A DNA stretch of 64,000 nucleotides, taken from assembly GCF_019977735.1 (NCBI RefSeq), contig NZ_AP025018.1, positions 1,364,001 through 1,428,000 on the forward strand. Direction: 5' to 3'. The stretch comes from Calothrix sp. PCC 7716. Its GTDB lineage: Bacteria; Cyanobacteriota; Cyanobacteriia; Cyanobacteriales; Nostocaceae. A model generated the notes under the pieces. That model searched no databases. It was not told where the DNA came from and was given only the letters and a program-made list of their open reading frames with translations. Position 1 is the first letter of the stretch. Each line of letters begins with the position of its first letter. Positions 1 through 64,000 of this stretch are shown here, in pieces. The translations under genes and the position numbers were made by a program.

Positions 1-1
1 T

Positions 2-2194
2 GACTTAACTGGGGCAATTGAATTCCACAAGCAGCAAAAGTCAAAGGCTACTTTGATATTAACGCGCGTTCCAAACCCTATCGAATTTGGTGTTGTAATT
101 ACCGACAAAGACGGTCGAATCAACCGATTTTTAGAAAAACCTTCGACGAGCGAAATTTTTTCCGATACTGTTAATACTGGTACATATATTCTAGAGCCAG
201 AAGTTTTAGATTATTTGCCAGAGAATACCGAATCTGATTTCTCTTCATTTTTATTTCCTTTACTTCTAGCAAAGGGTGAACCGATGTATGGTTACATTGC
301 CCAAGGGTATTGGTGCGATGTCGGTCACTTAGATGCTTATCGTGAGTCACAGTACGATGCACTTGACCGTAAAGTCAAGTTAGATGTTGCCTATAACGAA
401 GTATCACCAGGATTATGGGTGGGTCAAAATACTTACATTGACCAATCTGCTAAAATTGAGCCTCCTGTTGTGATTGGTGATAATTGCCGAATTGGCGCCC
501 GCGTTCAAATAGAGGCTGGTTCAGTAGTTGGTGATAATGTCACAATCGGCGCCGATGCTAGTCTCAAACGTCCAATTGTCTGGAATGGCGCAATACTTGG
601 TGATGAAGCTCACTTAAGTGCCTGCGTAATAGCACGAGGAACACGAGTAGACCGTCGCGCCCATGTACTCGAAGGGGCAGTGGTAGGTTCGCTATCGACT
701 GTTGGAGAAGAGGCACAAATTAGCCCGTTTGTTAGAGTTTGGCCCAGTAAAAAAATTGAATCAGGCGCCACTTTAAATCTGAATTTAATTTGGGGCAACA
801 CTGCACAGCGCAATTTATTCGGACAGCGTGGAGTTCAAGGGTTAGCAAATATTGATATAACCCCTGAATTTGCCGTCAAGTTAGGCGCCGCATACGGTTC
901 TACACTCAAACCTGGTTCAAAAGTCACAGTATCGCGTGACCAACGTAACATTTCACGCATGGTAACACGGTCATTAATTGCGGGCTTAATGTCGGTAGGT
1001 ATTGACATTCAAAACCTTGATGCAACCGCTATTCCAATTACACGCACTGTTATTCCTACAATGGGTGTAGCAGGTGGTATTCATGTGCGCGTACACCCCG
1101 ACCGTGCGGACTACATCCTAATTGAATTTATGGATGATAAAGGTATCAACCTTTCTAAACCCAAAGAAAAGAAAATTGAAGGGGCATTTTTTAAGGAAGA
1201 TATGCGACGTGCCCTAATTCACGAAGTTGGGGATGTGGCATACCCTAGCCAAGTTGCTGACATTTATTGTATGGCTTTTGAAAAATTTCTACATATTGAC
1301 ACAATTCGTAATAGTCGAGCCAAAGTTGTAATTGACTATGTTTACGCAGTGTCTGGTGCAGTACTACCCCAAATGCTCGACCAATTTGGCGCCGATGCAG
1401 TAGTACTAAATGCGAGTTTGAACAAAAGCGCAATGTCGGCAATGAACCGCGAAGCATTGTTAACGCAGTTAGGACATGTTGTCGAAGCTTTAAAAGCTAA
1501 CTTTGGTATTCAAGTATCAGCAAACGGTGAACAGCTAATTTTAGTTGATGAGTCTGGAATGCCTATCCGTGGTGAAATATTAACCGCGCTAATGGTTGAC
1601 ATGGTGTTAACCTCACATCCACGCGGCGCCGTTGTAGTTCCTGTTCATGCTTCGAGCGCCGTTGAACAAATAGCTCGGCGCCATGACGGTAAAGTTATCC
1701 GCACCAAAGCTAACCCAACCGCGTTAATGGAAGCATGTAACAAAAATCCAAATGTTATGCTCGGTGGCAGTGGCGATACAGGCTTTATTTTCCCTGAACT
1801 ACATCCTGGTTTTGACGCCATGTTCTGTATTGCCAAAATCATTGAAATGCTGACAATTCAAGAACGTTCGTTAGCATCGGTACGTTCGGAATTACCCCGT
1901 GTTATCCACAAAACTTATACGGTTCGCTGTCCTTGGACTGTTAAAGGCGCCTTGATGCGGTATTTAGTCGAAACTCACCCAGCACAAAACCTAGAACTGA
2001 TTGACGGTGTAAAAATCTGTCAGCCTTACGATGATAGCTGGATATTAGTACTACCTGATGCGTCAGAACCTTTAGTACATCTTTATATCAATAGCAATGA
2101 CCGCGACTGGGTAGATAGCACTCTCAGAGATTATCGCGCGCGCGTACAAATGTTCATTGAGAGAGAAGAAGAAGCTGTAGTAGCTGAAGTTTAA
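2..2194 (+). CDS. Nucleotidyltransferase / hexapeptide / phosphomannomutase-like fusion (5' partial)
   Basis: The reading frame is open from base 2, so the start and most of the nucleotidyltransferase domain lie outside the window; about 730 residues are visible. The first ~110 are the end of a sugar-phosphate nucleotidyltransferase (FLEKP, NTGTYILEPEVLDYL and GYWCDVGHLDAY motifs). Next is a left-handed beta-helix of hexapeptide repeats (VVIGDNCRIG, SVVGDNVTIGADA). The last ~440 residues resemble phosphomannomutase/phosphoglucomutase. Cyanobacterial proteins of this build are usually annotated mannose-1-phosphate guanylyltransferase. The mutase half looks degenerate: where the family has the phosphoserine loop TASHNP this protein reads GGIHVRVHPDRADY, so the catalytic serine seems absent. 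That half is more likely regulatory than a working mutase. Family assignment is strong; substrate (GDP-mannose or another NDP-sugar) is inferred. Confidence 0.85.
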   Translation, partial: DLTGAIEFHKQQKSKATLILTRVPNPIEFGVVITDKDGRINRFLEKPSTSEIFSDTVNTGTYILEPEVLDYLPENTESDFSSFLFPLLLAKGEPMYGYIAQGYWCDVGHLDAYRESQYDALDRKVKLDVAYNEVSPGLWVGQNTYIDQSAKIEPPVVIGDNCRIGARVQIEAGSVVGDNVTIGADASLKRPIVWNGAILGDEAHLSACVIARGTRVDRRAHVLEGAVVGSLSTVGEEAQISPFVRVWPSKKIESGATLNLNLIWGNTAQRNLFGQRGVQGLANIDITPEFAVKLGAAYGSTLKPGSKVTVSRDQRNISRMVTRSLIAGLMSVGIDIQNLDATAIPITRTVIPTMGVAGGIHVRVHPDRADYILIEFMDDKGINLSKPKEKKIEGAFFKEDMRRALIHEVGDVAYPSQVADIYCMAFEKFLHIDTIRNSRAKVVIDYVYAVSGAVLPQMLDQFGADAVVLNASLNKSAMSAMNREALLTQLGHVVEALKANFGIQVSANGEQLILVDESGMPIRGEILTALMVDMVLTSHPRGAVVVPVHASSAVEQIARRHDGKVIRTKANPTALMEACNKNPNVMLGGSGDTGFIFPELHPGFDAMFCIAKIIEMLTIQERSLASVRSELPRVIHKTYTVRCPWTVKGALMRYLVETHPAQNLELIDGVKICQPYDDSWILVLPDASEPLVHLYINSNDRDWVDSTLRDYRARVQMFIEREEEAVVAEV

Positions 2195-2199
2195 ATTTA

Positions 2200-38450: not shown

Positions 38451-38462
38451 TCCGCGCACCAC

Positions 38463-41666: not shown

Positions 41667-41680
41667 GACGCGGGACTCTT

Positions 41681-43823: not shown

Positions 43824-43829
43824 TCCCTC

Positions 43830-43893: not shown

Positions 43894-43911
43894 CACCACA
43901 ACACTAAATAT

Positions 43912-45034: not shown

Positions 45035-45209
45035 TTAAGTTAGGAGTGAGGAATGAGGAGTTAGGAGTTGTAAGAAATTATGAGTGCTGAGTGCTGAGTG
45101 CTGAGTAGAAAGAAGTTTTAATTCCTAACTCCTAACTCCTAACTCCTAACTCCTAACTCCTAACTCCTAACTCCTAACTCCTAACTCCTAACTCCTAACT
45201 CCTAACTTT
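45035..45209. repeat. Heptamer repeat array between cpcE and cpcF
   Basis: GGAGTTA-type and GTGCTGA-type units (about 45042-45110) are followed by about 12 tandem CTCCTAA units (about 45121-45205) that end four bases before the cpcF ATG, so the repeat itself replaces the normal ribosome-binding region. No Shine-Dalgarno of usual form is present for cpcF. Confidence 0.88.
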
Positions 45210-45926
45210 ATGAATAGTGTTCAACAATTAATTAGTGCAGTAGAAGAAGCTGATTCTTCAGCGAAATTAGTCGAAGCTGTACAAAATTTAGCATCTTCTG
45301 GTTCAGAAGATGCCGTACCAACATTGATTGCAGCTCTCGGATATAACAACCCTGGCGCCGCAGTTGCAGCAGTTGATGGGTTAATAGAAATAGGGGAAAA
45401 ATCTGTTAAACCTCTATTGCAATTACTCGATAACTATAACTATGGAGCGCGTGCTTGGGCAGTACGTGCATTAGCAGGTATTGGTGACCCCAGAGGATTT
45501 AATACTTTACTCGATGCTGCCAAAAATGACTTTGCTTTGAGTGTACGTAGAGCAGCAGCACGGGGTTTAGGAACAATTCACTGGCAGCAAATGCCATCTG
45601 AACAGCGCTCAACCTCCCAACAACAAGCACTCGAAACCTTAATTCAAGTTTGTCGTGACCCAGAATGGGTAGTGCGCTATGCAGCAGTAACTGGACTAGA
45701 AGCACTTGCAAATGCTGCGAGTGAAACTCAACCAGATAAATTACCACAAATTACGGCGCCGCTTTTAGAAATGGCAAACAACGACGAAGAAGTCGCAATT
45801 AGAGCGCGTGCTTGGATGGCAATACATCAGCACCATAGTCAAATAGAAATGCCTAACATGAAAAAGCTCGCAGAATCTGACGACGAAAAAGAAGTACCAA
45901 GTCGCGGCAGTGGCAGAAGATCGTAA
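45210..45926 (+). CDS. cpcF: Phycocyanobilin lyase subunit beta CpcF
   Basis: The 238-residue HEAT-repeat protein pairs with CpcE: AVPTLIAALGYNNPGAAVAA, LDNYNYGARAWAVRALAGIG and VRYAAVTGLEALANA are typical. The isomerase motif of PecF is absent, supporting a plain phycocyanin lyase. The C-terminal tail is charged (SDDEKEVPSRGSGRRS). It is separated from cpcE by the heptamer array and may be less expressed or differently translated because of it. Confidence 0.92.
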   Translation: MNSVQQLISAVEEADSSAKLVEAVQNLASSGSEDAVPTLIAALGYNNPGAAVAAVDGLIEIGEKSVKPLLQLLDNYNYGARAWAVRALAGIGDPRGFNTLLDAAKNDFALSVRRAAARGLGTIHWQQMPSEQRSTSQQQALETLIQVCRDPEWVVRYAAVTGLEALANAASETQPDKLPQITAPLLEMANNDEEVAIRARAWMAIHQHHSQIEMPNMKKLAESDDEKEVPSRGSGRRS

Positions 45927-45954
45927 AATTCTCTCAGAACGTGTGTATTATTAA

Positions 45955-45984
45955 TGTAGAGACGTGACATGTCACGTCTCCACC
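45955..45984. repeat. GTAGAGACGTGACATGTCACGTCTC palindrome upstream of recJ
   Basis: TGTAGAGACGTGACATGTCA (45955 onward) continues as a near-perfect 30-base palindrome between cpcF and recJ. A second, perfect copy lies inside recJ (47875-47904). It may end the cpc operon transcript. Confidence 0.85.
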
Positions 45985-46026
45985 ACGTGTGAATCCAACA
46001 ATCAAATTCCAAAAAACCCTCCTGCA

Positions 46027-48360
46027 ATGTTATCTCAACCGCAGTGGAATTTAATCACAACCGAACAACCACCGCAGTGGTTCACCGAAGCAGTCAAACG
46101 CTACACACCAAATTCGAGCGGTAAATTTGCCGCAAGCTTATTATGGCAGCGAGGAATTAATCAAGTCGAACAACTAGAAGCATTTATTAACCCAGAAATA
46201 TATAAATCTAAATCAGCAAGTCCATTTGAATTTGGACAAGAAATGCAGTTAGCCATAGCACGGTTAACTGCAGCACGTGCCAACCATGAAAAAGTCGCAA
46301 TTTGGGGAGATTTCGACGCCGATGGTATTACATCAACAGCAGTATTATGGGATGGGTTAGGACAATTTTTTACCCAGGACACCAAATTAATTTATTACAT
46401 TCCCAATCGCATCACCGAATCGCATGGACTCAATATAAAAGGCATTGAAACGCTTATCAAACAAGGATGTAAGCTGATAGTTACTTGTGACACAGGTAGC
46501 ACAAACATCCAAGAAATTGCTTACGCAAACAAGTATGGTGTAGATGTCATAGTTACAGACCATCATACTTTACCAACCGAACGCCCAAACGTCACAGCAA
46601 TAATTAACCCACGTTATTTACCGTTATTACATCCGTTATATAATTTATCTGGAGTCGCAGTAGCTTATAAATTAGTCGAAGCACTATATACAGCTTTGCC
46701 TAACATTGCACAGCAACCACTCGAAGATTTACTAGATTTAGTTGCAATTGGACTTATTGCTGACTTAGTACAACTTAGCGGAGACTGTCGTTATTTAGCG
46801 CAGCGAGGAATTCAGCGTTTACAAACCGATTTTCAACAACCACCCGCACTACGTCGGCGCCCAGGAGTAGGTAGACTATTAGAACTGTGTCAAAAAAGTG
46901 GCGACAGACCAACAGATATATCCTTTGGTTTAGGACCACGCATCAACGCAGTTAGTCGTATTCAAGGTGACGCGAGGTTTTGCGTAGAATTACTAACAAG
47001 TCGCGACCAAACGCGCGTTAGTCAACTGGCAGAAGAAACCGAACTAGCAAACGCGCGTCGTAAATCTCTGCAAAAAGATATTACACAACAAGTCAATCAA
47101 AAGCTTTCTCAAACAGATTTATCGACAACAAACGTTATAGTTCTCTCAGACCCACAATGGTCAGCAGGAGTATTAGGACTCGTAGCAGGGCAAGTAGCAC
47201 AAGAAACAGGGCGCCCAACTATTTTACTAAGTACAGAACATTCTCCTAGCAACCTTGCCCGTGGTTCTGCACGTTCGATAAATTCCGTAGACTTATATCA
47301 ACTCGTTAAAGACCAAGCACATTTACTACATAAATTCGGTGGACATCCATTTGCAGCAGGTTTAAGTTTACCTGTAGAAAATATTCCCTTATTTAGCGAA
47401 GCCATAAATCAGCAACTACGACAAACCATAGGTACTACAATATTGGCGCCAACAATACAAGCTGATATAAAAGTTCAAGTAGCAGACTTAAGCAAAGAAT
47501 TATTTTTAGAGTTTAAACTACTAGAACCCTGCGGAATGGGCAACCCAGTACCCAAACTGTTGATTCAAAACTGTTGGTTTAAAAACGCTTGGCATCGTAA
47601 TCAACAAGATACGCAAGGTAAAAAAATACAATATATCAAAACTGAGTTTGATATTCTCGATAACTCCACCGTCAACCCATTCCCAGGTATATGGTGGGGA
47701 CATTATAAAGAAGAACTACCTGAAGGTAAATGTGATTGTATCGCCGAACTCGACTACAACAGCTTTAAAAAACGCTACGAAATTCGTCTTATCGCAGTTA
47801 GACCTAGCACTAACTCACAACTTAACGCTCAAAAAATCTCTAATTCTATATTAGACTGGCGCCATTCACCAAATTGTAGAGACGTGACATGTCACGTCTC
47901 TACATTATTGTTAGAAGAATGTCCATCATCTTGGGATGAAATCCGCACGTGGATTAAAAAGTCATACCACCTCAACCAACCTTTAGCGTTAGCTTGGTCA
48001 AAACCACAAAATCAATCACCACAGGATGTTTGGTATAAACTAGCAGGACTTGCCAAATACCTTGCGCGTACTCAAGAACCAGTTACCCGTATTCAACTAC
48101 GAGAAAAACTAGGTATTGGCGACCAACCCTTACACTTAGGATTAAAAGCTTTACGGAATTTAGGTATCAAAAGTACTTTCAGTGACCGTAATTTAATATT
48201 TGTCGAGAGTTCTAAGCATCAATCAAAGTTAGCATCAGCACAATCTGCGCTGGAACAATTTTTAGCAGCAGTTCAAGAAGAACAGTTTCAACGCGCGTAT
48301 TTTGCTGATGTTCCACTATCTGCTGTCAACGCATTGGCAAGTCGAATTTTTGATTCATAA
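46027..48360 (+). CDS. recJ: Single-stranded-DNA-specific exonuclease RecJ
   Basis: About 777 residues from the ATG at 46027 (MLSQPQWNLITTEQPPQWFT); the frame opens at 45964 but that part only reads the palindromic repeat. RecJ degrades single-stranded DNA 5' to 3' in recombination and mismatch repair. DHH-domain motifs are intact: WGDFDADGITSTA, VTCDTGSTN and VTDHHTLP. The DHHA1 motif GGHPFAAGLS lies near residue 445 and an OB-like domain follows. A cyanobacterial C-terminal extension of about 150 residues follows. Residues 617-626 (CRDVTCHVST) are encoded by a perfect 30-base palindromic repeat. Confidence 0.93.
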   Translation: MLSQPQWNLITTEQPPQWFTEAVKRYTPNSSGKFAASLLWQRGINQVEQLEAFINPEIYKSKSASPFEFGQEMQLAIARLTAARANHEKVAIWGDFDADGITSTAVLWDGLGQFFTQDTKLIYYIPNRITESHGLNIKGIETLIKQGCKLIVTCDTGSTNIQEIAYANKYGVDVIVTDHHTLPTERPNVTAIINPRYLPLLHPLYNLSGVAVAYKLVEALYTALPNIAQQPLEDLLDLVAIGLIADLVQLSGDCRYLAQRGIQRLQTDFQQPPALRRRPGVGRLLELCQKSGDRPTDISFGLGPRINAVSRIQGDARFCVELLTSRDQTRVSQLAEETELANARRKSLQKDITQQVNQKLSQTDLSTTNVIVLSDPQWSAGVLGLVAGQVAQETGRPTILLSTEHSPSNLARGSARSINSVDLYQLVKDQAHLLHKFGGHPFAAGLSLPVENIPLFSEAINQQLRQTIGTTILAPTIQADIKVQVADLSKELFLEFKLLEPCGMGNPVPKLLIQNCWFKNAWHRNQQDTQGKKIQYIKTEFDILDNSTVNPFPGIWWGHYKEELPEGKCDCIAELDYNSFKKRYEIRLIAVRPSTNSQLNAQKISNSILDWRHSPNCRDVTCHVSTLLLEECPSSWDEIRTWIKKSYHLNQPLALAWSKPQNQSPQDVWYKLAGLAKYLARTQEPVTRIQLREKLGIGDQPLHLGLKALRNLGIKSTFSDRNLIFVESSKHQSKLASAQSALEQFLAAVQEEQFQRAYFADVPLSAVNALASRIFDS
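47875..47904. repeat. Perfect 30-base palindrome inside recJ
   Basis: The left half is TGTAGAGACGTGACA and the right half its exact reverse complement. It is codon-aligned in recJ and adds ten residues without breaking the frame. Same family as 45955-45984. Confidence 0.95.
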
Positions 48361-48449
48361 TTCAGCCTTTTAAAGCATCCAGTTTCAACAAAAAATTAAG
48401 ATTATTATGTATGGTAGTGTAGTCTGACTATTCAGAGCATATTTTAGTG

Positions 48450-51400
48450 ATGAAAAGTGACGAAGTAGAATTTCTGAATGGCGGTGGCGAGATGGGGGAG
48501 CGGATACGCTCATTTGACTGGTCTGTGACTCCGCTTGGTGACGTTAAAAACTTTCCTCAAAGCTTGCGGAGTGCCATCAGTATTTTGCTGCCTTCTAAAT
48601 CGCAGATTGCGCTATTCTGGGGTCAAGACTTTATTAAGTTATATAACGATGCTTTTAGTTTGGTGTTAGGCGCCAAGCATCCTTATGTATTGGGAACACC
48701 TGCGCGCTTATGCTGGAGCGAGATTTGGGAAACTTTAGAACCTTTGTTAAACGGTGTGGTCGAAACAGGTGAAGCGTTTTGGGCACAAGATTATTTATTT
48801 TTAATCGACCGTAGTGGCTATATTGAGGAAACTTATTTTGATATTTCTTACGACCCTGTACGTGATGAAAGCGGTGGAGTAGGTGGTATTTTCTGTATAG
48901 TGAGAGAAAATACTGGGCGAGTGTTAGGTGACCGACGGTTAAAAACTTTACGTGATTTAGCAATTCAAACGGCACAAACTACCACAGCAGAAGTTGCTTG
49001 CTCACAAGCAGCAGTTGTGTTGAGTCAAAACCCATTAGATATTAGTTTTGCACTACTTTATTTATTAGATGCAGACGGCACCGCGCGGCGAGTTGGTGTA
49101 ACAGGTATAGAACCAGATTTACAATTTAGCCCATCTATAATAAACGTTGATGATGCAGTATGGATGCAATCGTCATTAGTCCAAGCGCTTAGTACTGGGC
49201 AACCACAAATTGTGACAGATTTGCAAACGCCTAAAAATGATGCAATTCCAAATGTAGTATTAGGTAACGCAACGATTCGTTGTAATACTGCAATGGTGTT
49301 ACCGTTAACGCGCGCTTCAGAACAGCGTCCGTTTGGATTTTTAATTACTGGCATTAGTCCCTTCCGAAAGCTTGATGCTGCTTATAAAGACTTTTTGGAA
49401 CTAGTAGCAAGTAGCATTACAACAGCAATAATTAACGCACGCTCAAAACAAGAAGAACGTCAAAGAGCCGAGGCACTTGCAGAACTAGACCGTGCTAAAA
49501 CTGATTTTTTTAGCAATATTAGTCATGAATTTCGTACTCCCCTGACTTTAATATTGGGGCCGTTAGCGCAAACTCTCGCTACAGCATCCGAACTCGATAA
49601 CGAACATCGTCAACAATTAGAAACTGTACAGCGCAATGGGCAGCGTTTGCTAAAGCTTGTAAATACATTATTAGACTTTTCGCGTATTGAAGCCAAGCGC
49701 GTTCAAATGAATTATGAACCAACAGATTTAGCATCCCTTACTGCTGAACTTGCTAGCTTATTTCGCTCAACAATTGAGTATGCAGGAATGCGATTAATTG
49801 TCAACTGTCCGACTTTACCAGAACCTGTATATGTAGACCGGGACTCATGGGAAAAAATAGTCTTAAATTTGCTCTCCAACGCTTTCAAATTTACATTCTC
49901 TGGAGAAATTGAAGTTTCGCTCTTATGGGCGCCGTTATCACAAGTTGAGTTAAAAGTACGTGATACCGGAATTGGCATTAAAGAGTCAGAATTACCACGC
50001 TTGTTTGAAAAATTCTATCGTGTGCAAGGGGCAAAAGGACGCAATACCGAAGGCTCAGGGATTGGATTATCATTAGTTCAAGAGTTAGTACATTTGCATG
50101 GTGGAACAATTGAGGTTAGTAGTGTGGAGTGTAAAGGAACTTGTTTTACTGTCTCAATTCCTACAAGTAATGCTCACATAAGCGAAAATCAAATTAAAAC
50201 AAGTACAGCTAACTCCACCAATGCTAGCTTTTATGTAAAAGAAGCACTGCGCTGGCTACCAACTAAAGAAGAAAGTAATAAAAATCTACTTTCGTCAGTT
50301 TCAAATATTCCGAGAATTTTGCTTGCAGATGACAACGCTGATATGCGTGCGTATATCCAACGGCTTTTAGAACCTGAATATGAAGTTGAAACAGTAACTG
50401 ATGGTAGTGCGGCATTTTTAGCAGCGTTAAAATACCCACCAGATTTGGTACTTACCGATGTAATGATGCCAAATTTGGACGGGTTTGGGCTACTGAAAGC
50501 GCTACGACACAATCCGACAACCCGTGAAATTCCGATTATTCTCTTATCAGCGAGAGCTGGAGAAGAGTCTCGAATTGAGGGATTAAATGCAGGCGCCGAT
50601 GATTATTTAGCAAAACCTTTTTCCGCACGCGAACTATTAGCACGAGTCAAAGCTAATTTAGAATTGGGACAACTTCGGCTTGAAGGACGGCGAATTAGCG
50701 AAGCACGCATGTTGTTAGCATTAGAGTCTGCTGAGTTAGGCACTTGGGATTATTATCCAATGACAGGCGTTTTAAATTGGGACGAGCGCTGCAAAGCAAT
50801 GTTTGGTTTACCCAGAGATGCTCTTGTAAATTACGACATATTCTTAGCTGGTTTGCATCCAGAAGACCGGGAGCGTACTGACAAAATAGTACAACAAGCG
50901 ATAAATCCCAACGGTAACGGTAAATATGATATTGAGTATCGTACTATTGGCATTCAAGATGGCATTGAACGGTGGATAGCAGCAAAAGGGCAAGCCTACT
51001 TCAATCGTGAGGGAGAAGTAGTAAGATTTGTGGGAACGGTTCTTGATATTAGCCAGAAAAAAATAGCAGAAGTCGAGCGTGAACAGTTATTGAAGGGCGA
51101 ACAAGCTGCACGCGAACAAGCCGAAGCCGCAAATCGAGTTAAAGATGAGTTTTTAGCAGTGTTGTCCCATGAACTAAGAACACCACTCAACCCAATTCTT
51201 GGATGGCTGAGATTACTGCAAACAAAGAAATTAGACTCTGCTAAAACTAGTGAAGCGCTTGTTATTATCGAACGCAATGCAAAATTGCAATTAAGATTAG
51301 TTGAAGACTTGCTAGATATTTCTCGCATCATGCGTGGGAAATTATCTATGACTGTGGCGCCAACAAATTTAAAATCGATAATTGTTAGTGCAGCAGAAAC

Positions 51401-51818
51401 AGTAAAGCTAGCAGCAGAAGCCAAACAAATTCAACTAGTATTACACCTTGATTCAATTGAATCAGTTTCAGGTGATGCAGCCCGTTTACAACAAATCGTC
51501 TGGAACCTGCTTACGAACGCTATAAAATTTACACCGAATGGTGGAAAAGTTACTGTCACCTTACGCATCATTGATAATTATGCCCTAATTGAAGTTATTG
51601 ATACAGGTAAGGGAATTAAACCAGACTTTATACCACATGTGTTTGAATATTTTCGACAAGAAGACAGTTCTACTACTCGTAATTTTGGCGGGTTAGGACT
51701 TGGATTAGCAATTGTGCGTCAATTAGTAGAACTGCATGGGGGAATAATTTGGGCAGAAAGTCCCGGAGAAAATCAAGGCGCCACCTTTACAGTGAAATTA
51801 CCAATAATCAAGAATTAA
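48450..51818 (+). CDS. Hybrid sensor histidine kinase with two kinase modules and an internal receiver
   Basis: About 1122 residues. In order: a PAS-like sensor (about 30-155, GWDFIK-type FWGQDFIKLYNDAFSLVLG); a GAF domain (165-335); a HisKA/HATPase kinase with H-box FFSNISHEFRTPLTLILG (His near 359), NLLSNAFKF and GIGLSLVQELVHLHGG; and a receiver domain (about 625-745) with ILLADDNADMRAY and acceptor Asp in VLTDVMMPNLDG. A second PAS/PAC follows (about 755-880), then a second kinase with DEFLAVLSHELRTPLNPILG, NLLTNAIKFTPNGG and GLGLGLAIVRQLVELHGG. No membrane helix, so cytoplasmic. The double-kinase layout suggests an internal phosphorelay; the signal is unknown. Confidence 0.92.
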   Translation: MKSDEVEFLNGGGEMGERIRSFDWSVTPLGDVKNFPQSLRSAISILLPSKSQIALFWGQDFIKLYNDAFSLVLGAKHPYVLGTPARLCWSEIWETLEPLLNGVVETGEAFWAQDYLFLIDRSGYIEETYFDISYDPVRDESGGVGGIFCIVRENTGRVLGDRRLKTLRDLAIQTAQTTTAEVACSQAAVVLSQNPLDISFALLYLLDADGTARRVGVTGIEPDLQFSPSIINVDDAVWMQSSLVQALSTGQPQIVTDLQTPKNDAIPNVVLGNATIRCNTAMVLPLTRASEQRPFGFLITGISPFRKLDAAYKDFLELVASSITTAIINARSKQEERQRAEALAELDRAKTDFFSNISHEFRTPLTLILGPLAQTLATASELDNEHRQQLETVQRNGQRLLKLVNTLLDFSRIEAKRVQMNYEPTDLASLTAELASLFRSTIEYAGMRLIVNCPTLPEPVYVDRDSWEKIVLNLLSNAFKFTFSGEIEVSLLWAPLSQVELKVRDTGIGIKESELPRLFEKFYRVQGAKGRNTEGSGIGLSLVQELVHLHGGTIEVSSVECKGTCFTVSIPTSNAHISENQIKTSTANSTNASFYVKEALRWLPTKEESNKNLLSSVSNIPRILLADDNADMRAYIQRLLEPEYEVETVTDGSAAFLAALKYPPDLVLTDVMMPNLDGFGLLKALRHNPTTREIPIILLSARAGEESRIEGLNAGADDYLAKPFSARELLARVKANLELGQLRLEGRRISEARMLLALESAELGTWDYYPMTGVLNWDERCKAMFGLPRDALVNYDIFLAGLHPEDRERTDKIVQQAINPNGNGKYDIEYRTIGIQDGIERWIAAKGQAYFNREGEVVRFVGTVLDISQKKIAEVEREQLLKGEQAAREQAEAANRVKDEFLAVLSHELRTPLNPILGWLRLLQTKKLDSAKTSEALVIIERNAKLQLRLVEDLLDISRIMRGKLSMTVAPTNLKSIIVSAAETVKLAAEAKQIQLVLHLDSIESVSGDAARLQQIVWNLLTNAIKFTPNGGKVTVTLRIIDNYALIEVIDTGKGIKPDFIPHVFEYFRQEDSSTTRNFGGLGLGLAIVRQLVELHGGIIWAESPGENQGATFTVKLPIIKN

Positions 51819-51958
51819 ATTTTACTGAATATTTCATATTATTAAAACATAATTTCTAGTCTCTGTGGTAAAAAAACATGACTAAAGTCATGGTAACAAA
51901 ATGACTTTTGCCACAATTTTTCAATAACACTAGTTGTGTATAGTAAGTGGTGTAAACT

Positions 51959-52705
51959 TTACTTTTGCTCGTCTATACTCTCAATACCCACTTGTCGTTC
52001 GCATTTATAGCCAGTTTGGCGCCAAGCGTCTAAATTTACATCTTTAAGATTTATTACATTTGCACATTGTGGATGTTGGAAATGGCTCCATAGTGCCCAA
52101 GCAAAGCTGCGAATAATATCCAACGCAGTTTTGAAGGGTGATTCTTGGTTACCGGGAACACCTTGTTCTTGCACAACGTCAAACTCTACCCAGATGCCAT
52201 GCGCTCCAAAAATAATTTGTGCCATCCATTTGGCCCGAGGTAAATGACTGTGCGAGGTAATCAACTTGATTTTACGAGCCTTCCAACTCTCCAAAATAGG
52301 CAAGCTGTAAAAAAAATTATCAAAAGTTGAATTTGCACACTTTTCTAGCCAAATATTAGCTAAAATAGCTTGTTTGCGCTTAAAAATCGACAAAATACAC
52401 GGTTCTTGCGAACCTTGCGAGATGAGAACTGGGATTTTAGCGTTTTTAGATGCAAAATCTGCGGCATAAACTTCGCGTGCAATGCTTCCACCTAACACAA
52501 AAGTGGCACTAACTGGCTTGGAAGATGAATTAATTAAGGTTATAGTGTTAAAAACCAGCCAAATACAAAGGAGAAAGCATAAACCCAAGCTGAGTTTTGG
52601 TAAAAATTGCCACCTCAACAACCGAGGCATACGGTTTGCGCGGGTGAATAGTATGTAACTTTTTGTTTTATTGTTTATCATAGAATTTAATGGAGTAATG
52701 TTCAT
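51959..52705 (-). CDS. YdcF/DUF218-family membrane-anchored protein
   Basis: About 248 residues from the ATG at 52705, chosen because GTGGGGATTTTT lies before it. A single membrane helix (PKLSLGLCFLLCIWLVFNTI, about 38-60) is followed by the DUF218 domain: ATFVLGGSIAREVYAADFAS, IPVLISQGSQEPC, IKLITSHSHLPRAKWMAQII and the C-terminal RQTGYKCERQ. DUF218 proteins bind nucleotide-like ligands and some affect envelope or antibiotic tolerance; the function here is unknown. It faces the C-terminal protease gene divergently. Confidence 0.85.
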   Translation of the reverse strand: MNITPLNSMINNKTKSYILFTRANRMPRLLRWQFLPKLSLGLCFLLCIWLVFNTITLINSSSKPVSATFVLGGSIAREVYAADFASKNAKIPVLISQGSQEPCILSIFKRKQAILANIWLEKCANSTFDNFFYSLPILESWKARKIKLITSHSHLPRAKWMAQIIFGAHGIWVEFDVVQEQGVPGNQESPFKTALDIIRSFAWALWSHFQHPQCANVINLKDVNLDAWRQTGYKCERQVGIESIDEQK

Positions 52706-52986
52706 AAAAATCCCCACATTTCAAAGATTCAAATGCTATGTTATAAACACATGACTGGGTGCTTTGTACGTGTGAAGACGTGTCATTCGATTCTAAGTTA
52801 CTTAGGGAGTAAATCGGCTCTATTAAAAAATAGATGTAGCAACAGTTACATATGTATTTCCGGATAAATTTCAGGATAAATTTCCTTTCTTTGAAGAAGC
52901 TTAAAATAGTATAAAGACTTTAATCGCTTCTTTAAAAAGCTAATTGTTAAACTGTCAACAACACATAATTATTCCAGCTAATATAC

Positions 52987-54333
52987 ATGAACCAATCTGC
53001 GAAACGTTACTCGCCGCTGCAAGTCGCTTTGATTGGTGGAGCTATTGCCTCCACAGCTATGCTTTCTGTGTTTGGTCCTGCATGGTGTCGGTCAGTCAAG
53101 GCTGCGCTACAAGATAGTCCAAAAGCGATTGTTGACCAAGTATGGCAGCTAGTAAACCGTGAATATGTAGATGGCAAATTTAATCAACAAAATTGGGTGG
53201 CTATTCGCCAAGAATTGTTGAGTAAAAACTACTCTTCGCGTGAAGAAGCATATGTTGCCATTCGTGCAGCTTTACAGAAGTTAAATGACCCCTACACTCG
53301 ATTCCTGGATCCAAAGCAATATGAAGCCCTAACTAGTCAAACTTCAGGTGAAGTATCTGGGATTGGTATCCGGATGGAGGTTAATAGTAAAACTAAGCGT
53401 TTGACGGTTGTTGAAGCGATAGAAAACTCTCCAGCTTTAAAGGCAGGTGTTAAGCCCGGTGACCAAATTGTCGCAATTGACGGCAAACTTACGCAAAACA
53501 TGAAGGTTGACGATGCCTCGAAGTTGATTCGTGGTAAAGCTGGAACACCAGTCACCTTAAGATTATTGCGTGACGGCAAAAGCGATTTTAATTTAAATTT
53601 AACACGAGCTACTATCGAAGTTCCAACTGTTCGCTACGCTTTACGTAATGAAGGTACTAAGCGTGTTGGTTATATTCGTCTACGTGAATTTAGTGCCCAT
53701 GCTGGCGACCAAATGCGAAAAGCTATTCGTGACCTTAACACAAAAGGTGCCGATAGTTACGTGTTAGATTTACGTGGCAACCCAGGTGGTTTACTACAAG
53801 CGAGTATTGAAATCGCGCGCATGTGGATGGACAATGGTTCAATTGTTCGCACCGTAGACCGTGAAGGTGTAAGCGACGAAACCTTTAAAGCCAACCGTAC
53901 AGCATTGACAAATTTACCTATGGCTGTATTAATCGATGGTAATTCTGCCAGTGCTAGTGAAATTCTTACAGGCGCCCTTAAAGATAATAAGCGTGCAGTT
54001 GTAATTGGTTCTCAAAGTTTCGGTAAAGCTCTTGTACAATCTGTACACGAACTAGCAGATGGTTCGGGTGTAGCAATTACAATTGCCCACTATTACACAC
54101 CACAAGGAACCGATATTAACCGCAAAGGTATTACCCCAGATGTGAAAATTGACCTGAGTGAGTCACAGCAACGCTACCTAGCATCAAATCCAGATTTATT
54201 AGGTACACAAAATGACCCTCAGTACGCTCGCGCGTTATCAGTGCTAACCAGCAATAACTTTGCAAAACCGTCTCCACCAAATCAAACCTCACAAAAACCC
54301 ATTAACGGACGTGCAGTTGATTTGAAACTGTAA
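52987..54333 (+). CDS. C-terminal processing protease (S41 family)
   Basis: The 448-residue protein has an N-terminal signal or anchor (VALIGGAIASTAMLSVFGPA), so it acts in the thylakoid lumen or periplasm. A PDZ domain (about 118-205, VSGIGIRMEVNSKTKRLTVV, GDQIVAIDGKL) comes next. The S41 core carries DLRGNPGGLLQ, and the Ser-Lys dyad is in DGNSASASEILTGALKDNKR and GSQSFGKALVQ. The family trims C-termini, in cyanobacteria including precursor D1 of photosystem II (CtpA). Which of the CtpA, CtpB or CtpC paralogues this is cannot be fixed by eye. Confidence 0.9.
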   Translation: MNQSAKRYSPLQVALIGGAIASTAMLSVFGPAWCRSVKAALQDSPKAIVDQVWQLVNREYVDGKFNQQNWVAIRQELLSKNYSSREEAYVAIRAALQKLNDPYTRFLDPKQYEALTSQTSGEVSGIGIRMEVNSKTKRLTVVEAIENSPALKAGVKPGDQIVAIDGKLTQNMKVDDASKLIRGKAGTPVTLRLLRDGKSDFNLNLTRATIEVPTVRYALRNEGTKRVGYIRLREFSAHAGDQMRKAIRDLNTKGADSYVLDLRGNPGGLLQASIEIARMWMDNGSIVRTVDREGVSDETFKANRTALTNLPMAVLIDGNSASASEILTGALKDNKRAVVIGSQSFGKALVQSVHELADGSGVAITIAHYYTPQGTDINRKGITPDVKIDLSESQQRYLASNPDLLGTQNDPQYARALSVLTSNNFAKPSPPNQTSQKPINGRAVDLKL

Positions 54334-54344
54334 AAAGAGTTAGG

Positions 54345-54440
54345 AGTGCTGAGTGCTGAGTGCTGAGTGCTGAGTGCTGAGTGCTGAGTGCTGAGTATTT
54401 CTACTTTACACTCAGCACTCAGCACTTTCTACTCAACACT
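54345..54440. repeat. GTGCTGA array with inverted end after the protease gene
   Basis: Eight tandem GTGCTGA units (about 54347-54402) face inverted ACTCAGCACTCAGCACTTTC (54411-54430) and can form a long stem. It lies between the protease and glycosyltransferase genes. Confidence 0.88.
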
Positions 54441-54519
54441 ATTAATAGTGATTTAGGATTTTGGATTGGGAATACTATGGACGTAAGTAGTAAATCCCAT
54501 TATTCAAAATCCTTATTTT

Positions 54520-55494
54520 ATGACTACGAAATCAGACGATACATTAAACGACAAACACATAAATTATTTACCCAAAGTTTCTGTAGTTGTGCCTATATAT
54601 AATGGTGAAGAAGATTTACGCGAGCTAATACCTTGCTTATTGGCACAAACTTATCCATCAGAACTCGTAGAATATTTACTTGTAGACAATAACAGCAGCG
54701 ACAATACCCTCAAATGTCTACAAACAGCGGCAGAACAGTGTTCAATTACAATACATCCATTAAGCGAAAGTAAAATACAAAGCTCTTACGCAGCTAGAAA
54801 TACAGGAATTCGTGCGGCAAGTGGAGAAATAGTTGCTTTTACAGATGCTGACTGTCGTCCACAACCGCAATGGTTAGAGTTATTAGTACAACCCTTCGTT
54901 AATCTCGATGTTGCTATAGTCGCGGGTGAAGTAGCTTCACTTCCTGGCAAGACATTATTAGAAAGATTCGCCGACCGTGAAGAAACATTATCACAGAAAC
55001 ATACTTTAGCACATAAGTTTCGTCCTTACGGTCAAACGGCTAATTTAGCGATTCGACGTATCGCGTTGCAAAAAGTCGGTTTATTCCGTCCTTATTTGAC
55101 GACAGGGGGTGATGCCGATATTTGCTGGCGAATTCAACAAGAGTATATTGGTAAATTAGAATTTGCGGCTCTTGCTATAGTTCAACACCGTCATCGTACT
55201 ACTTTAAAAGAACTTGCTTCCCAGTGGCGCCGTTATGGACGTTCTAATCGCTACCTGCACGAATTGTACGGTATTGATTTAATGCGGGCAATAACGCTCT
55301 CTGAATGTGGCTACAATTTGGTTCGTTGGATTGTTAAAGAAGTGCCCAAACTTAGTTTAAAAGCTGCTTTAGGTAAAGGAAATGTGATTGATATATTAAG
55401 TACTCCTATTGGATTATTTACTGCCAGAGCGCGCTATTACGGTCAAATGTCAGCAACTATGCCAGAAAATGCCTCTGATATTGATTGGTTGTAA
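54520..55494 (+). CDS. Family-2 glycosyltransferase
   Basis: The 324-residue GT-A protein opens with VSVVVPIYNGEEDLRELIPC and LLVDNNSSDN (nucleotide-sugar site). TDADCRPQPQWLE is the DxD metal site (about residue 108) and TGGDADICWRIQQ the acceptor-side ED-like motif. A short hydrophobic C-terminal section may sit on the membrane. The sugar and acceptor are unknown; envelope polysaccharide is likely. Start ATG follows repeat-rich DNA without a clear ribosome site. Confidence 0.88.
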   Translation: MTTKSDDTLNDKHINYLPKVSVVVPIYNGEEDLRELIPCLLAQTYPSELVEYLLVDNNSSDNTLKCLQTAAEQCSITIHPLSESKIQSSYAARNTGIRAASGEIVAFTDADCRPQPQWLELLVQPFVNLDVAIVAGEVASLPGKTLLERFADREETLSQKHTLAHKFRPYGQTANLAIRRIALQKVGLFRPYLTTGGDADICWRIQQEYIGKLEFAALAIVQHRHRTTLKELASQWRRYGRSNRYLHELYGIDLMRAITLSECGYNLVRWIVKEVPKLSLKAALGKGNVIDILSTPIGLFTARARYYGQMSATMPENASDIDWL

Positions 55495-55497
55495 TAA

Positions 55498-55534
55498 AGA
55501 AACCGGGTTTCTATGATAAAGAAACCCGGTTTCT
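55498..55534. repeat. Two AGAAACC(C/G)GGTTTCT palindromes after the glycosyltransferase gene
   Basis: AGAAACCGGGTTTCT (55498-55512) and AGAAACCCGGTTTCT (55520-55534) are 7 bases apart. Each folds on itself and the two also pair with each other. Confidence 0.88.
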
Positions 55535-55592
55535 GCACTGGCGCCATCAAATCGCGTTAAATTGAAGAAAAGTATGGGACAAGGATGAGTCA

Positions 55593-56288
55593 ATGTCAGC
55601 ACAATTGTTACTGGTAGATGATGAACCAGGATTGCGCGAAGCCGTAAAAGATTACTTAGAAGATAGTGGTTTCAGCGTTCAAGTTGCCAGTAATGCCCGT
55701 GAAGGGTGGGATTTGATGCAACAAAATACACCAGATTTGCTAATCTCGGATATTATGATGCCACAAGTAGATGGCTATCAATTTCTGAAGCAAGTACGTG
55801 AAGACGCCCGTTTTAAATCATTACCTGTAGTATTTTTGACAGCAAAAGGGATGACGGGCGACCGTATTCAAGGATATCAGGCAGGAGTAGATGCTTATTT
55901 ACCCAAGCCGTTTGACCCCGATGAATTGGTCGCAATTGTCGAAAATTTATTGATACGGCGTACTCCTAGTACGCAGCAATCAGGAGAAGATGGTGAAACG
56001 CCAGATATTGCCGAACTGGCAAAACAAATTGCTCAGATAAAAGCACTGTTAACCCAGAAAAATGCAATAGCGCAATCACCAGCACCATTTACCATAGATT
56101 TGACACCTAGAGAGCAAAGCGTTTTAAATCTAGTTGCCGAAGGATTGATGAATAAAGAAATAGCTCGTCGTTTAGAAACAAGCGTTCGCAACGTCGAAAA
56201 ATACGTTAGTCGTCTATTTAGTAAAACTGGTACAAATAGCCGTACTGAATTAGTACGTTTTGCACTCGAACACGGATTGGCAAAGTAG
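55593..56288 (+). CDS. Ycf29-like LuxR-type response regulator
   Basis: The 231-residue protein has a receiver (LLLVDDEPGLREAVKDYLED, Asp in LLISDIMMPQVDGYQFLK, Thr in VVFLTAKGMTGD, Lys in AYLPKPFDPDEL). A linker of about 35 residues leads to a C-terminal LuxR HTH (LTPREQSVLNLVAEGLMNKE, SVRNVEKYVSRLFSKTGTNS). The architecture and REC sequence resemble Ycf29/TctD-like regulators conserved in cyanobacteria and red algal plastids. The Ycf29 link is by resemblance only. Single gene, no adjacent kinase. Confidence 0.85.
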   Translation: MSAQLLLVDDEPGLREAVKDYLEDSGFSVQVASNAREGWDLMQQNTPDLLISDIMMPQVDGYQFLKQVREDARFKSLPVVFLTAKGMTGDRIQGYQAGVDAYLPKPFDPDELVAIVENLLIRRTPSTQQSGEDGETPDIAELAKQIAQIKALLTQKNAIAQSPAPFTIDLTPREQSVLNLVAEGLMNKEIARRLETSVRNVEKYVSRLFSKTGTNSRTELVRFALEHGLAK

Positions 56289-56832
56289 GAGTTACGGGGG
56301 GTGTCTAAAAATCCCCCCGTCTCCTAGTACAAAAATTTATGAAAACGTATTGCGGAGCGAAAAATTACCCTGGAATAATTTGGTTGTCAATCTGACCTTG
56401 TTTATAAGCAAGGAATGATTGGTTTAGTAGGCACCCAAGTATCTTGTGTAGTGCAATGGGTGAAGGCTACTGTAAACGTGACGACTTTTCTTCCGTCAAG
56501 AGCTTGTGAGGCAATCTACAATTTCCGGCTGTTACTTAATCAAAGTGAAGCGCATCGGCCGCTTGTTTATCTCCAGAGAACACCTAAAAAAAAAATCCAT
56601 TTAGTTAAAGGTTGTTCCTGCTGACCAATCGACGTGCCAAATAAAATTATAGGACTGCCTTTGAAAGCCTATACAGCATTGGAATAGAAGTTGTAGGTTT
56701 TCGTTACATAAGCCGACTTGTGCGTGCATATTGTGTACAGAGTGTGAACATAGAGTATTGCTGGCAAACTTAAAAAAATTTACCTATTTATCTATTCTAT
56801 GAACGGTATACTTAGATTAAATTATTTAAGTA
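56289..56832. other. Intergenic region, possible small RNA locus not recognised
   Basis: About 540 bases between convergent genes with no supported ORF; a short plus-strand ORF inside lacks a ribosome site and protein-like composition. A hairpin-prone stretch GACGACTTTTCTTCCGTC lies near 56478. No known RNA family was recognised. Confidence 0.4.
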
Positions 56833-57114
56833 TTATTGATTGGTTTCAGTAGAGTTACGTAAACGCATTAATTGACGACGCATTTGCGGAGAAGCCTTAA
56901 ACTCGCTTACCTCATGAGCTTTAACAGCTGTTTGCAAAGTTTGAATGAAATCATCTGAGCCATCTACTAATGCTTCTAAAAGCACTTGTAGTAATTGGTC
57001 GCGGTCGGAAAATAAACTTTTTTCCTCAACCAAACGAAACTTGAGATGGATTTCACATTCGTATACGCCAACTTCGACGCTATTAATTGGACGTGGTAAC
57101 GGTTTCGAGTTCAT
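56833..57114 (-). CDS. Hypothetical protein, 93 aa
   Basis: I do not recognise this family by name. The protein reads MNSKPLPRPINSVEVGVYEC, EIHLKFRLVEEKSLFSDRDQ and LLQVLLEALVDGSDDFIQTL, then a basic end (QMRRQLMRLRNSTETNQ). It looks like a small beta-strand followed by two helices, cytoplasmic. Composition and codon use match neighbours. The family seems limited to cyanobacteria, judged only from style of sequence. Confidence 0.6.
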   Translation of the reverse strand: MNSKPLPRPINSVEVGVYECEIHLKFRLVEEKSLFSDRDQLLQVLLEALVDGSDDFIQTLQTAVKAHEVSEFKASPQMRRQLMRLRNSTETNQ

Positions 57115-57911
57115 AATTTTCAGGATTCCTTCGGTTGTTGGGTCAGTCGTTACTAGGGAGCAGCAGTTTAAATCGCTGCTATTAGCTATATCTTTTTTAA
57201 ATCTCTCTAGTTTGAATTAAGAATTCTTGTTAGTCAATGCAATTTGTATCCCATGTTGCTCCTTTGTTTACTTTTTTTTGTACCTATACTCTTTGAGCGT
57301 CTCTCAATTTACCCAGCTACCCCCACTCCTGTGCAATTTAGGTAAACCATAACTATTATTCAATTTTTATGATTCTATACAATGAAGTTTTTGTAAGAAC
57401 TTGCTGGTGCTTTTTAAAGGTTTTTACATCAACTTGATATGAACGTCAACAACAGTTTTTGTTTTTACCTTTAATATGGTGTTTATACGTAAGTGATAAC
57501 GCTGATTTTTTTTTGATAATGTCATCCTAGAGCCAACTGCATCATTACTACGTAAAAATACTAAATGTATGATTTGTTCATTTGAACGAAAATTGATAAG
57601 AATTGGGTAAAGAAACTAAGTGTTTTTTGACAGTAAATAACTGCATCGGTATGAACGAAACTTTTTGTCGTCAGAAACCGGGTTTGTTTAGCTCGTGCAT
57701 AGAAACCCGGTTTCTAGCAGTAAATACTATTGCCGAATGACCAAAACTAAAATACTCTAGTTCCCAAAAAAATAAAGAAATCAACACAAATCTATTTTGT
57801 AGCCTCAAACACGAATGCTTTGCATCAACAAATATAGGGGCAAAGAGTTGGGGTGAGAGAGTCTACAATTATTTAGAGTGAAATTAACCCTTAAGAGAAA
57901 ACATCCTCCCT
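57115..57911. other. Intergenic region upstream of ndhM
   Basis: About 800 AT-rich bases between divergent genes. Two copies of the AGAAACC-GGTTTCT repeat (57673-57687, imperfect, and 57701-57715, perfect) lie about 200 bases before ndhM. No ORF or RNA gene was recognised. Confidence 0.55.
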
Positions 57912-58265
57912 ATGGAAGACAACGCAATGCTGCTTAAGTCAACAACCCGACACATCCGTATTTTTGCGGCAGAATTAGACGCATCTGGAGAATTAGTACC
58001 CAGCAGTCAAGTCTTAACGCTGGACGTTGACCCCGATAACGAATTTAATTGGAGCGAGGATGCCCTCCAACAGGTTTATCGCAAATTCGACGAATATGTC
58101 GAACAAAACGCAGGTAGTGACCTCACCGACTATAACCTCCGTCGCATCGGCTCAGATTTAGAACATTTAATCCGCTCACTTCTACAAAAAGGTGAAATAA
58201 GCTACAACCTAAATGCCCGTGTTGCTAACTACAGCATGGGTCTTCCCCGCGTTGAGGCACAATAA
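57912..58265 (+). CDS. ndhM: NAD(P)H-quinone oxidoreductase subunit M
   Basis: The 117-residue subunit of the cyanobacterial/plastid NDH-1 complex is one of the oxygenic-photosynthesis-specific subunits (L-O, S) of the hydrophilic arm. Recognised by [60 protein letters not shown] and [19 protein letters not shown]. The start at 57912 ([10 protein letters not shown]) or 57927 are both possible; CCTCCC precedes the first. NDH-1 serves respiration, cyclic electron flow and CO2 uptake. Single gene, as in other cyanobacteria. Confidence 0.93.
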
Positions 58266-58412
58266 AGTGGAAAGTGCTGAGTGCTGAGTGCTGAGTAAGA
58301 AGTAGTGAGTGCTGAGTAAGAAGTAGTAAGTGCTTCTGAGCGAAGTTAAAACTTACTACGTGTACTCATAACTTAAAACTTACAACTCAGCACTCAGCAC
58401 TCAGCACTAATA
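58265..58412. repeat. GTGCTGA repeat cluster after ndhM
   Basis: GTGCTGAGT units (58273-58316) interleaved with AAGAAGTAGT units face inverted ACTCAGCACTCAGCACTCAG (about 58386-58406). Same composite family as in other gaps. Confidence 0.85.
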
Positions 58413-62337: not shown

Positions 62338-62422
62338 CCACTCCGTCATATAAACTAGTAGCAAACCTAAAATATTTTTATGGCGAATTCGGTTAAAACT
62401 ATAAAGAGATAGTCCCTAAAGA

Positions 62423-64000
62423 ATGCCCCTTGAAACCATGCCATCCTTAAACCTGGCGATAGCCCGTCTAGTTCATGCTGGCACCAACAATTTCGCTATT
62501 TGGGTGGTGCGCGCTCCTTACTCTAGTGGGCACGTTTTTCACGATTGCGTTTGGACACCCAACCTGACACAAGTATGGCAGGAATGGCAACAATTGTTTG
62601 CAGGTCACAGCAACCTCGATGTATCTCCCAACGCCAGCGAATCTGATAAAATTCAATCGAATTACTCCTTACCAATAGAATTACCCCAACCTGCCACAGG
62701 ACAACCAACTAACTACGCTGGGCGCCTAATGCAGTACTTTGGTAACTGTTTATGGCAATGGGTATTCGATGGACCAATTTTAAATAGCCTAGAACACAGT
62801 CGAGGAATTGCAGCAGGACAAGAAAAAAGTCTCCGTCTGCGTTTAGAAATACGCGACCCTTATTTGGTATCGGTACCTTGGGAAATTATGCAGCGTCCCG
62901 GTCAAGCTGCAATTTCTCTCAGTCAAAACGTCATATTTAGCCGTACCACCAGCGACGTTGACAAATTACCATCTTTACGTAGCGATGCTGGCTTAAATGT
63001 ATTGCTTGTACTTGGTGATGACGAAAATCTCCAACTCGAAGCTGAAGCTGAACTATTAAAGCGAACCTTAACACAAGGTACTGCAAGTGGTAGCAACTCA
63101 CGTGGTTACGCTCCATGTATTGTTACTAAACTAATTCGTCCTACCCCTGAAGAATTAATCGCAGCATTAGAAACGCGGGCATATAACGTGTTTTTTTATG
63201 CTGGTCATGGCTTGCGTGGACCAGATGGGGGCATATTAAATTTACACCCCAAAGCCACACTCAACGGCATTGAGTTGGCCCAGGTATTAACGCGCACAGG
63301 TGTAAAATTAGCTGTTTTTAATTCGTGTTGGGGCGCCCAACCTTTGGCAGTTAATCATCAACCAATACCTTACAGTAGCTTGGCAGAAGTATTAATACGA
63401 CATGGCGTACCAGCAGTACTGGGAATGCGCGATGTCATTGCCGACCGTGAAAGTCTTAGCTTTATTCAAGCTTTCTCAGAAGCACTGCGCTCACGTCGAG
63501 CTATTGATGAAGCAGTAGCCGATGCTAGGCAAAAACTACTATCTTTATATAAATTTAACCAACCTGGTTGGACACTACCCGTTCTTTATTTACATCCAGA
63601 GTTTGACGGGCAATTAATTCGCAGCTTAGACGAGAGCATTACCGAATTACCGACTTCTCTACCAGAATTTAGAAAAACATTCCCTGCTGCTTCACTGCGA
63701 CTACTTCATGATGGAACAAAACAACTACTTCCAACTCCCATCACTCGTATTGGTCGCACCACAGACAACAACATCATCATTCCCGATTTATCAGTTTCTA
63801 GGCAACATGCTCAAATTATTTGTCGAGATAGTTTTATTGACACAAAGTTAGAGCAAAGCTACTACTTACGTGATGATTCAACAGCAGGCACTTTAATATA
63901 TCAGTCTGGAGCATGGCAACGAATTCATCATGAAGAAGTACCACTAAGGTCAGGAACGCAATTAAAATTTGGTAGTAGCCGTGGTGACATTTGGGAGTTT
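62423..64000 (+). CDS. CHAT-domain protein with FHA domain (3' partial)
   Basis: The frame is open from the ATG at 62423 (MPLETMPSLNLAIARLVHAG; a second ATG at 62438 is equally possible) to the window end, 526 residues. The caspase-like CHAT domain covers about 60-400: the catalytic His is in NVFFYAGHGLRGPDGGIL and the Cys in LAVFNSCWGAQPLAVNHQ, and VPAVLGMRDVIADRESLSFI matches the fold. From about residue 430 an FHA phosphopeptide-binding domain follows (PITRIGRTTDNNIIIPDLSV with GR, SRQHAQI, then LRSGTQLKFGSSRG). Both CHAT catalytic residues are intact. The C-terminus is outside the window. Confidence 0.88.
   Translation, partial: MPLETMPSLNLAIARLVHAGTNNFAIWVVRAPYSSGHVFHDCVWTPNLTQVWQEWQQLFAGHSNLDVSPNASESDKIQSNYSLPIELPQPATGQPTNYAGRLMQYFGNCLWQWVFDGPILNSLEHSRGIAAGQEKSLRLRLEIRDPYLVSVPWEIMQRPGQAAISLSQNVIFSRTTSDVDKLPSLRSDAGLNVLLVLGDDENLQLEAEAELLKRTLTQGTASGSNSRGYAPCIVTKLIRPTPEELIAALETRAYNVFFYAGHGLRGPDGGILNLHPKATLNGIELAQVLTRTGVKLAVFNSCWGAQPLAVNHQPIPYSSLAEVLIRHGVPAVLGMRDVIADRESLSFIQAFSEALRSRRAIDEAVADARQKLLSLYKFNQPGWTLPVLYLHPEFDGQLIRSLDESITELPTSLPEFRKTFPAASLRLLHDGTKQLLPTPITRIGRTTDNNIIIPDLSVSRQHAQIICRDSFIDTKLEQSYYLRDDSTAGTLIYQSGAWQRIHHEEVPLRSGTQLKFGSSRGDIWEF

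Follow-up and report, generated by a model that had tools for sequence, protein, structure and literature searches.

GGCGCC, a probable replacement for the HIP1 palindrome in the genus of Calothrix sp. PCC 7716

What stands in for the highly iterated palindrome (HIP) of cyanobacteria in a genome that has almost none of it? The question is raised by a stretch of 64,000 bases from Calothrix sp. PCC 7716 (guanine-plus-cytosine (GC) content 39.4%; hereafter the window), in which GGCGCC occurs 119 times and HIP1 (GCGATCGC) not once. HIP1 is found about once per kilobase, in all reading frames and between genes, and the question of what it does in cyanobacteria is a long-standing one. On the evidence below, we consider it rather probable that GGCGCC is the HIP of this genus and the replacement of HIP1, that it goes with a GRCGYC-type methylase without its nuclease, and that its sites are old, partly maintained and slowly eroding.

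The original prediction, which had counted about 119 GGCGCC sites and no HIP1, is borne out exactly on both points. Base composition leads one to expect 3.7 GGCGCC in the window (32-fold excess) and a first-order Markov model 6.0 (20-fold); the maximal-order Markov expectation is 58, because that model already contains the excess. The whole genome (12.37 Mb, 10 contigs) holds 20,380 sites, which is one per 607 bases or 1,648 per Mb and lies within the range of about 1000–2000 per Mb that marks a HIP. HIP1 is reduced to 66 sites, and the over-representation typical of cyanobacteria is absent from both window and genome. Markov tests were performed on a 464-kb genome sample consisting of the window and 20 blocks of 20 kb, two of which (3.29 and 4.90 Mb) fall in HIP1-rich clusters. 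GGCGCC is the most over-represented 6-mer of this sample (674 sites against 39 expected, 17-fold), a palindrome far above its Markov expectation, and HIP1 occurs at 15 per Mb compared with 757 per Mb in outgroup loci. Neither a GGCGCC count near the Markov value nor abundant HIP1 elsewhere in the genome was found, and the proposal that GGCGCC stands in place of HIP1 holds for the counts in window and genome alike.

Of the 119 sites, 101 lie in the 44 predicted open reading frames (ORFs), where 300 synonymous-codon shuffles give 5.4 ± 2.5 (maximum 14), and 18 lie outside them, where 0.6 are expected. The coding sites are divided 61 (Gly-Ala), 20 and 20 among the three frames, and four sites fall in an IS630-type element. 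The earlier statements that all frames, gaps and the IS630 element are occupied, and that protein coding alone does not explain the sites, thus stand. The spacing in the window is random (coefficient of variation 1.05; Fano factor 1.18 per 2 kb). The other words that fit GRCGYC are depleted in the 464-kb sample (GGCGTC 8, GACGCC 6 and GACGTC 3, with about 39 expected for each). GGTGCC and GGCACC are not depleted (1.1-fold of expectation), and their densities of 149 and 145 per Mb exceed the 57 and 67 per Mb of outgroup loci.

The genus sample comprises seven genomes: that of the window (G000), Dulcicalothrix desertica PCC 7102 (G060), Calothrix PCC 7103 (G061), a genome taken as Calothrix HK-06 (G062), Calothrix NIES-4105 (G063), and the metagenome-assembled genomes Calothrix C42_A2020_038 (G064) and FI2-JRJ7 (G065); G060 and G064 are draft assemblies. 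All seven carry 7,475–20,380 GGCGCC (1,150–1,711 per Mb) and 31–163 HIP1, so that HIP1 is low wherever the alternate word is high. The other 210 of the 217 family genomes surveyed carry 0–1,053 GGCGCC (at most 111 per Mb) and 1,117–8,803 HIP1, with four exceptions (30, 535, 574 and 990). Within the family, composition was corrected for in 14 HIP1 outgroup loci of similar GC content, where GGCGCC reaches 0.10-fold of expectation. The abundance of GGCGCC is a clade trait of the genus and is not sporadic.

Outside the family, 317 genomes, themselves a sample of the order, were surveyed; 14 were picked for high counts or membership of family f9, and four of the 14 were given a composition-corrected test. 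Two apparently independent cases, G377 (1.11-fold) and G224 (0.92-fold), proved to be compositional after correction. G273 (L245–L250) has 9,489 GGCGCC in 3.8 Mb compared with 304–343 in four genus mates, 3.75-fold of expectation, together with 74 HIP1 and a GRCGYC-type methylase that is 55% identical; AGCGCC/GGCGCT are enriched even more strongly there. G346 has 81 HIP1 sites and a homologous methylase, and GGCGCC is at 0.40-fold of expectation in its sample. Of these genomes of the order, G273 thus parallels the genus in part, and G346 runs counter to it. RCCGGY-type words (ACCGGC, GCCGGT and GCCGGC) are enriched 5- to 11-fold in G346 (L251–L255), which resembles Oscillatoria PCC 10802 as described in the sections of Elhai (2015; PMC4390886) used here. 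The reversed word CCGCGG makes a misleading control, because many of these genomes avoid it.

A profile search with PF00145 gives 9–17 matches per genus genome, of which the weak fragments were carried forward only in part; clusters of neighbouring genes, drawn in by wrong seed ORFs, were set aside. Two ortholog groups of 5-methylcytosine (m5C) methylases occur in all seven genomes and four more in five or six of the seven. One of the two is of HindV type; it belongs to the m5C methylase family by both profiles applied (Table 1), is encoded outside the window and is 84–100% identical across the genus. It shares 55.5% identity with an E. coli plasmid methylase annotated as HindV, which is adjoined in the same record by a HindVP nuclease gene. 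Its target-recognition region, with bounds set by us, is 66–84% identical to those of 18 nuclease-linked entries. The genus methylases are monophyletic (support 100/99) in a tree of 34 entries that left out G045 and a G061 paralogue, for which no ORF was obtained. We take the HindV target to be GRCGYC; by homology, the genus enzyme would be expected to act on GRCGYC and not on GGCGCC alone. The gene has alignable surroundings in five of the other six genus genomes; in G062 the copy lies at a different place and has diverged further. That copy (L053/L107, G062:C60) adjoins a shortened paralogue; its identity is 85%, compared with 94.6% for the genome, and it is probably a replaced copy.

Of the 217 family genomes, 62 have homologues of this methylase at E<1e-60 and 43 have RE_HindVP (PF09519) nuclease matches, but the profile search found this nuclease in none of the seven genus genomes. 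In 38 of the 39 genomes that have both genes, the two lie within 0.3 kb of each other; a number of the nuclease matches are fragments. The median GGCGCC density is 0.71 per Mb in these 39 genomes and 5.1 in the 151 with neither gene (p = 1.7e-6; all p-values in this work are nominal), as expected if the methylase-nuclease pair targets GGCGCC; it is 1.2 in four genomes with a nuclease match only and 8.5 in 16 with the methylase and no detected nuclease. Within the 217 family genomes, the combination of lost HIP1, a GRCGYC-type methylase and a nuclease that was not found is confined to this genus. The original suggestion of a cytosine methylase for GGCGCC is therefore upheld in part: a fitting enzyme is present in all seven genomes, but its expected target is the wider GRCGYC and its presence alone is insufficient.

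To follow the turnover of the sites, 241.5 kb of the genome, with the whole window included, was aligned with the six other genus genomes, each covering 94–172 kb. Retention of GGCGCC, scored in four syntenic regions over pairs of genomes that are not independent of one another, is 0.59–0.77 in pairs 81–86% identical, compared with 0.31–0.38 for other GC-only hexamers; in pairs 93–95% identical, it is 0.81–0.90 compared with 0.65–0.74. In a comparison of five close genomes, there are 64 sites at which a single genome lacks GGCGCC and 17 at which a single genome has it, and the resulting gain/loss ratio of 0.27 stands against 1.7–2.1 for every GC-content pool. When an outgroup is used to polarise the changes, 540 site-lineages show 54 losses, of which 36 are at the centre of the word, and 89 near-miss site-lineages show no gains; under a looser outgroup count there are 41 losses and 9 gains. 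The centre changes run from C to T, with 36 losses and no gains in 27 site-lineages. As a HIP1 comparator for these rates, the four genomes of genus g53 are not syntenic and other loci are too few.

The changes are unevenly distributed over the hexamer. GGTGCC/GGCACC account for 277 of the 411 one-base alternatives at aligned sites and GACGCC/GGCGTC for 9. Centre transitions exceed those at other CpGs 4.2-fold when nonsynonymous (14/1027 versus 79/24106) and 1.5-fold when synonymous (42/643 versus 505/11412; p = 0.02). The outer synonymous positions change at 0.43 times the rate elsewhere (16/977 versus 1079/28767; p = 0.0002), a 2.3-fold constraint. Flanking synonymous sites change at normal rates, so the constraint is confined to the hexamer. 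The simplest reading is that the third base is 5-methylcytosine and that the remaining positions are constrained.

These observations suggest a sequence of events. The ancestor of the genus would have lost HIP1 while GATC came to be avoided, and would have retained an m5C methylase of GRCGYC type but not the restriction nuclease that went with it. GGCGCC is the only one of the four target words to have accumulated; the other three are depleted. Each GGCGCC of today is probably methylated at the third base. That base mutates fast to T, and a sequence-specific constraint holds the other four positions, which would make the sites an old class, partly maintained and slowly eroding.

Two explanations of this accumulation survive about equally well, and each, taken by itself, we hold to be rather unlikely. 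In the first, GGCGCC would be a functionless by-product of the ratchet of Elhai, in which G-5mC-directed mismatch repair makes the word from near-misses and stops when sites are dense, without any selection for them. The model predicts, in the sections used here, that one of the four GRCGYC words accumulates and the others are depleted, and it requires methylation of the internal, third-base C, which the C-to-T hot spot fits. Among the 17 single-lineage gains, the commonest other state is the rare GACGCC in two and GGTGCC/GGCACC in five, and the present net loss fits a ratchet that has stopped. However, a repair tract would hardly be limited to six bases, and the 2.3-fold constraint is absent next door. 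A second methylase copy, which may have been critical according to section 3.5 of Elhai (2015; PMC4390886), seems not to be needed, because the draft genomes G060 and G064 show only one copy of this type at E<1e-60; we rejected it as the trigger. The 17 gains are few for judging the route by which sites first accumulated.

In the second explanation, GGCGCC would be a selected chromosomal mark, read as such or in its methylated form by a protein that acts in segregation, recombination or replication; a mark of this kind has been proposed for HIP1. The confinement of the synonymous constraint to the hexamer, the high retention even between pairs 81–86% identical and the persistence of the word through all seven genomes agree with it, whereas the random spacing and the excess of losses over gains do not. 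Moreover, a reader protein would have to switch from GCGATCGC to GGCGCC, which Elhai (2015; PMC4390886) judged too much to expect.

Very-short-patch (Vsr) repair that turns GGTGCC into GGCGCC at methylated sites is far less probable. Such repair raises the C form at CCWGG in E. coli, and both the share of GGTGCC/GGCACC among one-base alternatives and the five gains with that other state are what it would leave. However, a profile search for PF03852 found no match in the seven genus genomes and one in the 217 of the family, GGTGCC/GGCACC are not depleted and exceed their frequency in outgroup loci, which is to be expected of products of decay, and the polarised centre changes run only from C to T. 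Base composition or Gly-Ala codon usage as the sole cause can be dismissed despite the 61 coding sites in the Gly-Ala frame, given the codon-preserving shuffles, the sites outside ORFs and the outgroup loci of like GC content.

Several points weigh against the reading of GGCGCC as an old HIP tied to the orphaned methylase. G346, with little HIP1 and a homologous methylase, nevertheless shows no GGCGCC excess. Nor do the 16 relatives with the methylase and no detected RE_HindVP, all of which keep HIP1 (1,751–8,091); a methylase without nuclease is therefore not sufficient. The specificity of the enzyme is deduced from homology, and another enzyme could be responsible, since the second group present in all seven genomes (370–398 aa) and the four in five or six genomes are also available. 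The few gains on tip branches (17 against 64 losses) mean that ongoing accumulation is not seen, and all turnover counts were made on 241 kb in lineages that are related. When the controls are matched by codon, the excess at synonymous centre positions is small (GGC before G, 28/454 versus 13/277; GCG before C, 14/189 versus 21/407), and the constraint at the third base of GCC is of weaker significance (8/488 versus 43/1210; p = 0.04). The density in DNA shared with distant congeners (1,726 per Mb) is not above that in less-shared DNA, aligned to fewer genomes (1,818–1,996 per Mb), and thus adds no support for erosion.

The features referred to are collected in Table 1. The ORF in the middle of the compared stretch is presumably recJ and was used to retrieve the loci of the named relatives; the IS630 label is that of the original prediction, taken over as given.

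Table 1. Positions of features in the window and of the HindV-type methylase gene.
Feature	Position	Strand	Remarks
GGCGCC sites (n = 119)	1..64000		random spread, mean spacing 533 bases
IS630-type element, two ORFs	20046..21106	+	four GGCGCC, at 20285, 20373, 20708 and 20842
Stretch around the recJ-like ORF	35901..58400		compared with counterparts in six other genus genomes
recJ-like ORF	45964..48360	+	used to retrieve loci of relatives
HindV-type methylase, 313–335 aa across the genus	G000:C1:10950554-10951489		outside the window; PF00145 214 bits, TIGR00675 above cut-off

Other words also deviate from expectation. CGCGCG is over-represented 5.2-fold in the 464-kb sample, with 23 overlapping sites in the window (e.g. 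2135, 27135 and 47012), and its density in stretches from each of the seven genus genomes is 288–1,090 per Mb (highest in NIES-4105), compared with 43 in HIP1 outgroup loci, which makes it a candidate for a second alternate HIP. ACGCGT, AGGCCT, CCATGG, CCCGGG, CCGCGG, CGTACG, GTCGAC and GTGCAC are missing from the 464 kb, and GATC (0.19-fold) and GGCC (0.11-fold) are strongly avoided there. One 12-kb segment (L198, G000:C1:6104001-6116000) is free of GGCGCC, HIP1, GATC and GGCC; it holds an ORF of 1,231 aa and one of 352 aa, the latter transposase-like by eye, and is probably a recent arrival. HIP1 clusters lie on G000:C1 at 3.26, 4.84, 6.41 and 4.90 Mb (L195, L196, L197 and L089, respectively). 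GATC is higher in their sampled stretches and GGCGCC lower in three of the four, and the clusters are likely to be DNA acquired from HIP1 cyanobacteria.

A genus with an exchanged word offers a natural experiment, in which an orphan methylase and several related genomes provide an independent test of the functions proposed for HIP1. Tentatively, and with some doubt, the whole genus may have exchanged the word of its methylation-linked palindrome system, GCGATCGC giving way to GGCGCC through the recruitment of a restriction methylase that had been orphaned, the new word being functionally constrained. If true, the swap would be a natural rewiring that separates the function of a HIP from its letters.

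In kind, GGCGCC as a HIP is already known. In a set of 97 genomes, Elhai (2015; PMC4390886) assigns it as alternate HIP to Calothrix PCC 7103, a strain of the same genus as the window that has little HIP1 and carries two GRCGYC-type methylases. The open-licence literature searched yielded no further paper that treats GGCGCC as a HIP of this genus. In the sections used here, exceptional HIPs are described as sporadic and not occurring in clades, and this is taken to argue that only HIP1 is selected. Since GGCGCC is clade-wide, the premise fails for this word, which weakens the case built on a lack of persistence of alternate HIPs in clades. The C-to-T hot spot is indirect evidence for the methylated base, which the same sections list as unknown for this specificity. 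New here are the genus-wide sharing, the absence of nuclease matches, the genomes with a single methylase copy, the substitution spectrum and the net loss.

Compared with the HindV restriction-modification system, the genus methylase is homologous over nearly its full length, including the variable region; in contrast to that system, the genus gives no RE_HindVP match, and the word is super-abundant here and avoided where both genes are present. The PCC 7103 case shares with our description the word, the low HIP1, the under-represented GACGCC, GGCGTC and GACGTC and the GRCGYC-type methylase; the present account differs from that in the sections used in covering seven genomes and a whole clade, in seeking the nuclease and in measuring turnover. 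GGCGCC resembles HIP1 (GCGATCGC) in being a palindrome that is found in all frames and between genes and is tied to methylases. It differs in the word itself, in the near absence of HIP1 where it abounds, and in the enzymes concerned, as the methylases linked to HIP1 target GATC and CGATCG (Elhai, 2015; PMC4390886).

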